Shown here: piece after piece, positions 28,715-34,700 of the stretch
Numbering within the stretch: the stretch's first letter is position 1
Layout of the letters: every line of letters begins with the position of its first letter
Assembly: GCF_964204865.1 (NCBI RefSeq)
Contig: NC_135260.1
Location: forward strand, 3,038,001 to 3,102,000
Origin: Styela clava
Taxonomy: Eukaryota; Chordata; Ascidiacea; Stolidobranchia; Styelidae
DNA: 64,000 bases
Direction: 5' to 3'
Position numbers and translations under genes: made by a program
The notes under the pieces: model-generated
Database searches by the model: none
What the model was told of the DNA's origin: nothing
Seen by the model: only the letters and a program-made list of their open reading frames with translations

Positions 28715-31700
28715 ATGTCAGTTACGTAAGTACTTAAAATATTGTATTCATATCTCTTAATGTTTGAAAAGGAAAAGTCGTGCAATGCTGTCTATGAAAT
28801 AGAATCATTACTGGCTCCGATTCCCTAAACACCAAGTAAGTTGCAACCCAGGCCAGCTGGGTCTTGAATCAAGTCCTAGTCTCAGCTATTTTTTAAGTTT
28901 TAGTCGGGTCGAGTTGCTGATGTTTCGAGTCCAAAGAAAGTCCAGTCTGACTCGAATTAAATCCTATTAATAGTGACACTAAAATTCAATTTTGATTTAA
29001 ACCAACGTTGTTTTGAAAGATGCCAATACAGAGGGTACTAGGGTTTTGTGCACTGAACCTCAAGTTCTTTCTTCCTTGTTTACATCCTACTTTGGATCTG
29101 TGTGTTCCAGTTTCGACAATGATGCTTAAATGAGATAGTATTAGAAGGAAAATGAAGAATGGTAGAATCTCTTTCCACAAAATAGCAGCTTATATTCGCT
29201 GTTATTATAAGTTACCGTATTTCCCGGCGAATAAGTCGCTTTTCTAGACCCAAATTTTTGGCATGATTTTGGGGTGGTCGTCTTATTAGGCGAGTATGAT
29301 ACATTTTTTGGTGTCGCCTCATTATTCAACTCAAACCATAAAATACCAATTACGTTCTGCGATATCATCCCCACGTTTTCATCATTGCCGTGTTGTTTTA
29401 GATCGGTAATGTTCTTATATGGTGCACGTAATCGCGAGTTAAGTTGAACACAATTAGATTGAAATTGAAAGACAGTTTGAATTCTTGAGTTGTTATGGAT
29501 TGAATATTACTTTACAAGAAAAGTCATATAGGCTATTTTAATCAATGCGCAAAGACGGCGACCGCTCAAAAGCCTCTGCAGTCTGCATGGTAATTTGAGA
29601 TACCGATTCCTTTCTGTAACTTGCTTGTAACTTTTGTTATCACACAATGGACTCTATAACCAGGATAATTAACATATAAGAGTTGTTACGTGCCGCTTGA
29701 ATCTGCAAAAACAATCGTAATAAATTTATTATTCCAATTTCTCCCAGCCGACGGGGGTGAGGAGGTAAGTTCTGTCTCTCTTGAGGGGATAGAGGGAGAA
29801 TCTTGCCTCTAGAGAAGTATTTGCAGTAGTACAACTACCAATATCTATTTTTTTCTATTAATACTATTATATTGGTTATCTATCCACGTATAAACTACTT
29901 GAATTGTACAAAAGCAGAAGTGCAACTTGCACATAAGGATACATTTAAAATTGAACAAATAAAGTATCATAGTTTTTATGCATTTGGAGTTCCAGAATAG
30001 GCGAAGGGATGTATTTAAAAAAAAATTGTAAACCGGCACCGCTATGTTATTGCATCAGGCTAAGCTGCTAGCCCAAAGTCTTAGTGAGTATACCAACCAT
30101 AAAAAGCTAACACTAGATATCAGTATTGAACAAGGTTTGTTTACATCACTCAGAAATGCCTCAGGGCCCATTTTGCTCTTTCGTAGTTTATAATCGCCCC
30201 CTCAGGGCATTCATTATTCTTTGTGAGTTGGTTAGGATGAGCAAGTTCATAACTTTCAGATTTCTAGACACTCAATCAGCAGTTAGGTTGTGAAGTTTCG
30301 ATTTAAACGAGTGAGTGTAGGAATAGGGGTATGATAGACAAAGAATTAATAAGTAATGAATAGGTCTGATGAAGAAATCTATAATCGGATATTTTTGTGT
30401 TGTGTAGTTTGTTATTTTTAGAGTCATTATTCACGATAAAGAAAGAAAAATTTGAAATAACTAAAATTTTTTTTATATTGGGATTCTATGATAATATACC
30501 TTTCAAATTTTTGCAAGGAAGCTTATTTTATGAATAGAATAGAAGCAATTCATACAAAAATAGTTAATTAGGATTCAGGGTAATTTGCATGAGTAGTTAT
30601 TTGATAATGCTTAAGGTTGTGAATTATAAATTAATGCTAGTAAAGAGGCGAATTGTATGTATATTAGAATTTAACAAGGGATTCAGTTATTTTTGTTGTG
30701 TAATTTTCCTTATTTCACGGCCAAATCATAATCTATACCAAAAAAAGTAAAAACTAAGATGCAGAATTAAGCATATTATGTCAATATTTTGTTTATGAAT
30801 ATAAGTTTCAAATTGTTCAATAATAAAGAGAATTTTGTTTTTTTCCTTTTGCCCGGTGCATCCATGAAGTACAGTTCACGAAATTATTATTATTAAATTA
30901 TTTTAATACTCATAAACCAATATTTAAATATAAAACTAAACTTCATAACACAAATTAGAAGAATACTGATTGAATGTAGGGCTTTGTAACATCAGTGCAC
31001 AAGGAAGCTTTTGCTAGCTTTTTGGGTATCAATATTAGAGGAAGAAACTTTTTCTTTGGTTAGAGGTCGTAATCTTTGACATGGGGGCGGTTATAAGTTC
31101 ATCATCAGAGGAAGAGAATGAGGAAGACGAGGTATTTTCTGAAGAAGAAGAAAAAGTAGAAATACGATACGAAGAAAATTTGAAAGAAATAAAAACAGTC
31201 GAGTCAGAATCAGATTCTGATATTAGTTTTGACTCGAGTTCTGACAGTTCTAGTTCAGACGACTCGAGTTTTTTCGGCGACTCGACGGAAGAGGATTCCG
31301 AAACTTCCAGTTATGAAGAAGTTGAAAATGAAATTTCGTAAGTTTTTGCTGATTCATCAGTGAAACAGTGAATCAGCACATTTATCTTGCATCAAAAATT
31401 GAAAGAAGATGTATTTCGGGCGTTTCTCTTTTAATTCTATATTTCGTGAGACTATTCCTTGATTTGCTGTTCTTTTTTGAAGTGGTTTGTTTGAAGCTAG
31501 TTATAGGCACACACTCAGTGGTGAAAGAGAATCATTTCTGAACACAGTCAATGGCAACCACTAAAATCGGCAGTGTAACTCATGTTAGGCGCTAGTACGC
31601 TTGCCACCGCACCATTATTACCCTGCTTGGGTTCACATGTTCGAATCCCATGATGGGATAGTCATGTGCGAAACTATTGCTGGTCTCCTCGCCGCCACAG

Positions 31701-34700
31701 GGTGGTTCACGTAACCGCTGATTGGTTCTCCATCATTGAGTTCATGCATCTTGAACAAATAAATGGCTGACTAATCCCATATTAGGCGCTGACGGATATT
31801 CACGGGCCGGGAGAGGAGAGCGCCGACTGGGGGTTGTCACCGATAAAAACTGTGAGAATGACATAACGATTGGCGGTATCTAGAATGCAAAATAAAAAAC
31901 ATGAAGTGTTGAACTATTTCACTTAAGTACGGCGAGCTATATTACCAACGCTATAAAGTAAGAAAAATAGCTGACAGCTTTTGGAAAAACATTTTGTTAA
32001 CAAATTTTGTTCTGGTTATTACGCTTTCTTTGAACGATGACAGCTCAACCCAATTTTTTTTATTTCAGTGAAGGAATCTTATTCAGTATGGGGAACCCCC
32101 TTCTTGATTTGTCCACCAATGTTGCAGAAGGATTTTTAAAGAAGTAAGATTTACTTTACTTTGAATTACATTACACTGTGTTCTGTTGTTTATATGCTGA
32201 AATTCTATCCTATCAAGTGAGAGAGGGAGAGAGATTTATTATTTCATCAACCCAAAAATATAGTCACCAATAAAATTGTTTTGGTATGAATAGGAGGGAG
32301 CGATACGAGGTCATCAAGGTCTACTCCCACCCTATTTGCTGATATGATTAAGATTCACACTAGTGGCAAAACTTGGACTAGCATGATGATATTTTCACAG
32401 GTTTCTAGAACAAAATTGGGGGATTCTTAACACTGGAGAGGCTTTACGTTACAGAGAAAAAATGCTTTTATAACAGATTAAGCAAGAACCCTATAACACT
32501 CAAATTACATCCAGTATTATATTGGAATTTGGCATTGAAAATTTGGATTTCATTGAGATTGCGATAATAATCATTTGTCCATCATGTCTTCAAGTATTTC
32601 TCTTTTTCATTTTTCCAGATATAACTTGAAAACAAATGATGCAATTATAGCAGAAGAAAAACATTTGCCAATGTATAAAGACTTGGTTGAATTTTTTCCG
32701 ATAGAATATATTGCAGGTGGTGCAACTCAGAATTCTGTCAAAGTTTGCCAGGTTGGTTTATTTTTGAAATTAAGTTTTGACACATTTTTATGAAAACTTT
32801 TATGTAAAGCCAGCAAGCATGGATGAATACATTCCAGAACACTAAGTGGCAAATTACGGCCCGAGGGCCAAACCCGGCCCACTGAAGTGTTTCATTCGGC
32901 CCACTTCTGTCTGCTCAAATTGAGACTAAAGTTTTTATGGATATAAATATTCCATGAAAATATCAATGAAAATAACGTCATAATGATCCCTATTCTTGCA
33001 TTGTGCTTATTATTATTATGTAACTGTTCGCCTAGCTGTTGTAAATAAACGTTTATATTCATAGTTTTTCTTATTGAGTTTTCAGCCCAATAACCAAGTC
33101 TATTATCTGTAACTGGCCCAACTCAGAAAAGTAATTGCGCACCCTTGTTCTAGAATAATCTTTTCGAATAGGAAATATTGAATATATTCTGAAATACGTC
33201 TGTTCAACAAGAGATATTCTTCAAGACAATTGTAAATTTGTGTAAATTAAATTTGTTTAAGCAGAATATTTGAGATAAACGTTGCATTTTCTATTTTATC
33301 AATGTAATTTGTATTGCACGATTTTCGTTGGTTAACTGCCATCAAAATTAACAGTGCTCCAACAGTCAATATTTTTGATCTTAAAAATGTTTATTTATAT
33401 ATTTTAACCTTGGGTCTTGATGCTGGATAACCAGCTTTAGTTCCCAATGACTTCCCTTCTCCAATGAAATGTGTATTTAATTTTATTGTTACTTATCGAT
33501 TTCAATCAGTAATTATGTTGCTAGGTCTGTCTGTCTGTTAGATGCACGCAATATCTCACGAAAGCGAGATTGAATCTGCTCCAGATTTTGCATGTGCATT
33601 CATCATATGTTGGACCAGAAAGAAGCCTATTGATTTTGGATGAATTATGTCGTATAACTAGCGAGTTATTAATTAATTAGTGATGGGACACAAGGTGTCA
33701 CTATGGAGTAAGAGCGCTTTTTTGGGGGATCCCCTAACTTTCGGTCGATAAGTCCCCGTCTCTGACCGATATTCTCGTTTTAAACTTTGCATGCTATTTT
33801 TTTACTGTATGGAAATAATAAACTTACCGTAACTATGAGTATAAATTTATTTTACCATTATTTTTAAAAATACAGAAATAATGAGGAAAGATAATGTTGC
33901 GCAGGGACCGACAGCAATTATTCTTATTTGGATACCTTGTTTTGAAAAATTTTTTAGACATTTTGGAATGCATAAAAACGTATTAAAATAATTGGCATTG
34001 TTTTTTTATGGCAAAAAAAGTTTTGTTGCTCGAACAAACCGGTAATTTCCGAACGAATTATGCTCGACTACCGAGATATCACAATCTATATTATCACTGT
34101 TTATATATATATATATTTGGGTGTCCATGAAGTCTCAAAATTTTGGCACATGTATTAAATGAAGTAAAAATACTTGAACAATTACCGATTGAAAAAATTG
34201 AGAACTGACTTCATAACCAAATTGAAATTGTAGAGCGACTTTGTAACCACCCTTTATATATAACCTATTATAACCATGAAAATAAACCTATTTTATCGCC
34301 TTTCAGTGGATGTTGGGAGTACCGCAAGCCACTACTTTCATAGGATGCATTGGGAATGACGAATTTGGTCAAATATTGAAACAAAAAGCCGAAGACGTCG
34401 GAGTGAAAACAGCATACTATGTACAGGACAAAGAACCCACTGGGACCTGCGCTGCATTGATTTGTGGGCATGACAGGTACTCGAATTTTGTGTGTTGAGA
34501 GTTATTGAGTTTGTGTTTTCATTTTCAATTTTTTTGCACTTGAATTTTAAATTAGAGGTATGTTCCCAATTCTACCTAATTTATTGCACTCAGGAAAAAC
34601 ACATTTTATCTTACTTGGCATACCCAAGATCTAGTTTAGGGCATAATTTGCTTCTGGCATGACTTATATTATGTTTAGTCTTGTTCACCCAACGACCTTA

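Follow-up and report, generated by a model that had tools for sequence, protein, structure and literature searches.

A candidate acidic alternative first exon of adenosine kinase in the ascidian Styela clava

Does the adenosine kinase (ADK) gene of Styela clava give rise to a second protein form, with a long acidic N-terminus, through the use of an alternative first exon? The question is raised by an open reading frame (ORF) at 31081-31337 of the window, by which we mean the whole stretch of 64,000 nucleotides analysed here (contig NC_135260.1, positions 3,038,001 to 3,102,000, assembly GCF_964204865.1). Judging from the sequence, we consider it fairly probable that this element is a genuine coding exon that serves as an alternative first exon of ADK and supplies a phospho-acidic addressing tail. 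We assigned it to ADK because of its place in intron 1, its phase, the GTAAGT present where its frame ends and the top-scoring acceptor of exon 2, and an alternative first coding exon of this gene is probably the best reading of the anatomy.

Two first exons and one ADK gene

A complete ADK gene was found on the + strand, from 28715 to 39056 of the window. Joining 28715-28725 to the nine downstream exons gave a protein of 345 aa without inner stops, of which residues 1-339 matched solved adenosine kinases (best 8rf7, E 2.4e-136; 1bx4, E 3e-129) and which also matched the Pfam family PfkB (E 7.8e-75). The entry 1bx4 is the human enzyme. A search of the genome (376.6 Mb, 379 contigs) with the ADK protein returned nine matches, all nine of them exons of the window gene; no paralogue was found genome-wide, which makes ADK a single-copy gene within the reach of this search. 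The features of the locus are as follows, with the analyses behind them in brackets.

28715-28725, + strand: coding part of the short-form first exon (ATG TCA GTT AC, 11 nt), with a GTAAGT donor (in-frame joining with exon 2, 345 aa)
31064-31080, + strand: putative 5' leader, preceded by an acceptor-like site (TTTTTCTTTGGTTAG, then AG, then GTC), with a possible exon start at 31064 or 31066 (acceptor scoring)
31081-31337, + strand: candidate acidic alternative first coding exon, 85 codons plus 2 nt, phase 2 (frame, exon joining, composition controls, genome DNA search)
31338-31343, + strand: GTAAGT donor, enclosing an in-frame TAA at 31339-31341 (sequence reading, donor scoring)
31580-31781, no strand assigned: interspersed repeat in the intron that separates the acidic exon from exon 2 (up to 9 additional copies in 264 kb)
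32069-32143, + strand: ADK exon 2, common to both forms (exon joining, as for all exons below)
32619-32751, + strand: ADK exon 3
34307-34476, + strand: ADK exon 4
34812-34917, + strand: ADK exon 5
35388-35478, + strand: ADK exon 6
36425-36504, + strand: ADK exon 7
37304-37454, + strand: ADK exon 8
38293-38382, + strand: ADK exon 9, with the DTNGAGDAF motif
38926-39056, + strand: ADK exon 10, with the stop

The acidic exon lies in ADK intron 1, between 28715-28725 and exon 2. Its ATG at 31081 stands in a strong context (TTTGAC-ATG-G, with a purine at -3 and G at +4), and its frame runs to a donor, TTC/GTAAGT, that begins directly after 31337. Each of the two first exons ends in phase 2 and reads in frame into exon 2 at 32069, giving full ADKs of 345 and 427 aa, the long form carrying 86 residues in place of the short-form MSVT. 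A sequence-only reading of this DNA had proposed the strong-context ATG, the 85 open codons, the GTAAGT donor and the in-frame junction to ADK exon 2, as well as the 11-nt exon at 28715 as the other first exon, and we found all of its coordinates and the phase to be right.

The same reading had called the exon extremely rich in Glu, Asp and Ser. Indeed, Asp, Glu and Ser (D/E/S) made up 64% of its 85 residues, above all simulated and real controls. In 150 order-4 simulations of the window, we scored the first 85 residues of every ATG ORF of at least 85 aa, and none of 1931 reached even 30% D/E/S (maximum 0.29). For the real control, we drew 200 kb of this genome in evenly spaced samples from part of a single other contig and scored the stop-free segments in them that spanned 85 codons or more; none of these 187 segments reached 50% in its best 85-residue stretch (maximum 0.49). 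Both statistics are descriptive only, as the D/E/S measure was picked after the exon was seen. The antisense frame was likewise Ser-rich (0.53), but lacked an early ATG. The G+C content at codon positions 1/2/3 was 0.48/0.34/0.31 in the acidic exon, 0.50/0.37/0.36 in ADK and 0.48/0.37/0.32 in a TUG-like gene of the window, and the Glu codon GAA was favoured in all three alike. Ser was spelled both by TCN codons (15: TCA, TCT, TCG and TCC) and by AGT (7), a mixture indicating that the exon is not a simple DNA repeat; its longest exact internal repeat was 10 bases. Composition, codon-position G+C and both sets of controls make a chance ORF unlikely, and we regard a coding origin as very likely because the D/E/S composition lies beyond the controls, descriptive though the figures are.

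A genome-wide DNA search with 30950-31400 matched only itself, and with no second copy found we rejected an origin as a repeat, transposon piece or retrocopy. Searches with the tail found neither a Pfam domain at E 0.01 nor a solved relative in the PDB at E 10, and an Rfam search of the window gave no match. A beta-lactamase likeness of the first 23 residues (single match, E 1.8) was taken as chance, and a third, weak match from the search for further copies (E 0.74), within an open frame of 1930 aa, as low-complexity likeness.

Besides the repeat listed above, interspersed repeats lie in the ADK introns and downstream at 35139-35205, 37613-38100, 38495-38723 and 39621-39710 (as many as 5 to 18 other copies in 264 kb). 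A further ATG, at 32037, opens a frame that crosses the acceptor of exon 2 and continues in that of ADK (32037-32143), perhaps by chance; a transcript starting just 5' of exon 2 would carry a third ADK N-terminus.

Splice signals and competing explanations

Several observations weigh against the reading as an alternative first exon with an addressing tail. The exon side of its donor (TTC) is poor. With a generic donor matrix, this donor had the lowest score among ten, 3.95 against 4.76 to 10.44 for its nine companions, and 724 of the 6817 GT sites in the window reach that score. With a matrix built from eight ADK donors it was unremarkable at 1.86, one ADK donor being lower (0.82); 2005 of the same 6817 sites reach its value. 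An acceptor-like site located 15-17 nt 5' of the ATG would suit an internal exon equally, the unspliced frame would form a complete 86-aa ORF, and the role of the tail is drawn by analogy. Weak donors are common in regulated exons and equally so in unused sites. The other GT within the exon, at 31132, scored alike (3.97, generic matrix) and is out of phase because it lies 51 bases from the ATG. Exon 2, for its part, has the top-scoring acceptor of the ADK gene.

At the acceptor-like site, a matrix made from nine sites only placed the AG before 31066 in the top 1%, and the AG before 31064 in the top 13%, of 3342 AG sites. Given this site, the exon may start at a promoter in intron 1, join a 5' untranslated region (UTR) exon or take a spliced leader (SL). 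Tunicates use such a leader; in Ciona it is 16 nt long, and at least 58% of the genes expressed receive it, according to the available part of PMC7986045. Among the places listed by our search of the S. clava genome, none matched the Ciona SL exactly. With up to two mismatches, there were 43 forward and 117 reverse matches, compared with 27 and 36 in the control. Among the matches listed, 69 reverse ones formed one array of ATTCTATTTGCATAAG on contig C3 (24847563-24961794, - strand), mostly 0.5-3 kb apart. The four copies that we examined had a tRNA-like flank by eye and no Sm motif (AGCTTTGG) downstream, and the array is probably not one of SL genes; ARAGORN called tRNA-Leu in one of four 301-base stretches, which makes this a candidate large tandem tRNA-Leu array. 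Nor was AGCTTTGG found within 60 bases of any of eight other near-matches. No Ciona-type SL gene was recognisable in the genome among these places; another tunicate SL may be in use.

The acceptor-like site also underlies the alternative that survives best, although we hold it to be unlikely, namely that 31081-31337 belongs to an internal exon, which would begin at 31064 or 31066 and follow an upstream exon in the transcript. This internal exon could be a 5' UTR exon, a coding exon of a longer N-terminus or a cassette after 28715-28725. The frame is open upstream to 31039, as such an exon would allow, whereas the strong context of the ATG suits a start and the acidic frame is not continued when joined to 28715-28725. 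Splicing 28715-28725 to 31064 would give an eight-codon ORF, MSVTGRNL, with its stop one base before the ATG at 31081. In the cassette variant, which has a share of the same low probability, this short upstream ORF would silence or retune ADK.

Next in rank, and also improbable in our view, is a separate small gene or ORF within ADK intron 1, of 86 codons to the TAA at 31339-31341, that is unspliced to ADK and encodes a free acidic peptide. With the donor unused, the frame adds one Ser and ends at this TAA within the GTAAGT, which gives the ORF a start and a stop of its own, and the weakness of the donor speaks for it as well. Set against this, only 30 of the 7337 stops in the window lie inside a GTAAGT, that of the acidic frame being one of them, and the phase is the one that exon 2 requires (one in three); the tail is also without a Pfam match at E 0.01 or a solved relative at E 10.

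A third and rather doubtful possibility is an N-myristoylated ADK isoform placed at membranes, a special case of the alternative first exon whose odds overlap with it. The sequence-only reading had noted that the start, MGAVIS, fits the myristoylation pattern MGxxxS (Met-Gly, with Ser at position 6), and this is so in the exon's reading. Gly is rare in the tail and MGxxx[ST] arose in only 0.6% of 2000 shuffles of it, indicating that the pattern is not given by composition alone, and myristoylation as such is possible. Myristate alone binds membranes weakly, and a myristoylated protein that stays bound to membranes usually has a second signal (available part of PMC4409355). No such signal, either a Cys for palmitate or a basic patch, was found in the acidic tail, whose 85 residues include 0 Cys, 3 Lys and 1 Arg and have a net charge of -28. 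Stable membrane anchoring of this ADK form is unlikely because of the missing Cys, the four basic residues and the charge. The earlier proposal of a second isoform by alternative first exon thus holds up in its anatomy, with both forms in frame, whereas its aim at membranes is the weak part, even though the pattern goes beyond composition.

The remaining alternative, a chance or decayed open frame without function, can draw on the weak donor and is very improbable: none of the 1931 simulated or 187 real segments matches the exon in acidity, its codon positions look like those of coding DNA, and nothing points to a DNA repeat.

The acidic tail and its possible role

We infer how the acidic form would be transcribed, spliced, translated, phosphorylated and localised. 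Transcripts starting in ADK intron 1 would be translated from the ATG at 31081, and splicing from 31337 to exon 2 at 32069 would make the 427-aa ADK, with MSVT exchanged for an acidic, Ser-rich extension of 86 residues and the catalytic core unchanged. The tail, predicted to be disordered from its composition only, would act as a negatively charged handle, open to phosphorylation by CK2, through which partners or compartment are determined. Nucleolin and Nopp140 carry acidic-serine tracts that are phosphorylated by CK2. As in proteins of that type, Ser runs stand among Glu and Asp in the tail, with 13 CK2-type [ST]xx[DE] sites in 85 residues; unlike them, the tail has no nuclear localisation signal (NLS) or basic segments, is attached to a metabolic enzyme and has a site count that is not clearly beyond composition. 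The CK2 sites put forward by the sequence-only reading are present, but only slightly above expectation (a mean of 9.3 in shuffled tails, with 13 reached in 122 of 2000 shuffles).

We also observed a core like that of a SUMO-interacting motif (SIM), either GAVI or AVIS, in which A, V and I are followed by Ser and an acidic run; the match is marginal. A SIM has a four-residue core, typically with at least three Val/Leu/Ile-like residues, beside an acidic or phosphorylated stretch (available part of PMC12751080). The tail resembles the PML phospho-SIM in that its hydrophobic AVI leads into Ser and an acidic run, and the extended PML SIM in an Arg-Tyr pair beyond that run (PMC12751080 and PMC4276917, each in its available part). 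A difference from the PML phospho-SIM is that the core has just two preferred residues, V and I.

According to the accessible part of PMC3118340, the mammalian forms AdK-L and AdK-S differ only in their first exon, one first exon lying within intron 1 of the other form; the AdK-L extension is an NLS, and no biochemical or kinetic difference between the forms is reported there. This is in accord with the statement of the sequence-only reading that mammalian ADK uses alternative first exons for nuclear and cytosolic forms. The S. clava locus is similar in having one ADK gene with exons 2 onward common and alternative first coding exons, and in an extension that takes the place of the short form's four N-terminal residues. 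It differs from what this part of PMC3118340 describes in the extension itself (20-21 residues forming an NLS in AdK-L, 86 residues with four basic ones in S. clava) and in the order of the exons, the AdK-L exon being upstream, and the acidic exon downstream, of the short-form exon. No basic NLS was found in the acidic tail, and none of 28 single-exon ATG-to-donor candidates of phase 2 between 20000 and 32060 (donor score at least 3.9) was flagged as a mammalian-type NLS first exon. An independent evolution of the acidic isoform fits a tail without the basic NLS of the mammalian long form (PMC3118340, accessible part).

By analogy with the mammalian forms, which are kinetically alike in that same source and of which the longer is extended by an NLS, the tail most likely addresses the enzyme and leaves its chemistry unaltered. 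An aim at membranes is less likely than a disordered handle that can be phosphorylated and that serves in the choice of partners or compartment. We put forward more tentatively, as a possibility that we would not favour, that a tunicate lineage has independently evolved an ADK isoform that places adenosine removal at one site, for example SUMO-rich nuclear bodies or, less likely, membranes, following the AdK-L design with an unrelated sequence. In mammals, the removal of adenosine in the cytosol and in the nucleus is divided between two ADK isoforms. If the proposal were true, localised adenosine removal would control methylation or adenosine signalling at that site, an isoform pair of unrelated sequence at the same exon junction would suggest that the ADK first exon is a point of repeated re-addressing in evolution, and S. 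clava would offer a simple animal for asking what compartment-specific ADK does. Among the papers listed by our searches of the open-licence PMC literature, which covered isoforms of ADK, ADK in tunicates, extensions of the N-terminus and myristoylation of ADK, none dealt with an acidic or tunicate ADK isoform. ADK isoforms by alternative first exon are known, and what is new here is probably the unrelated, longer acidic tail.

Other features of the window and genome

Elsewhere in the genome, we found a GH6 domain, which exceeded the cut-off in the genome search (1.5e-6) and gave 9.9e-11 with its exon alone; 0 of 14 control genomes were positive. A hydrophobic open frame beside it was judged by eye to be part of a cellulose synthase, a likeness for which Pfam returned no match. 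The pairing of GH6 with cellulose synthase is characteristic of tunicates, and the domain points to such an animal; COX1, tried as a taxonomic marker, gave no match.

Within the window, an open frame at 5132-5386 (- strand) reads like an exon of a proteasome ATPase, although by itself it matched nothing in Pfam at E 0.01. Two open frames that closely resemble each other, at 14142-14522 and 21510-21770 (+ strand), which read SERLLH... and LALFCLLS.TWLVT.NGEASQGLFNRC, had no Pfam match at E 0.01 and are apparently a duplicated membrane-protein exon. The TUG-like gene mentioned above is a 541-aa open frame at 42747-44372 (- strand) with TUG-UBL1 and UBX domains, that is, a TUG/ASPSCR1-like gene with a very long exon. 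Finally, the neighbouring long open frames at 51296-52249 and 54617-55831 (both - strand) gave weak CD20-like matches (E 0.0045 and 3.2e-5, both below the curated cut-off) and resemble a pair of related membrane proteins.

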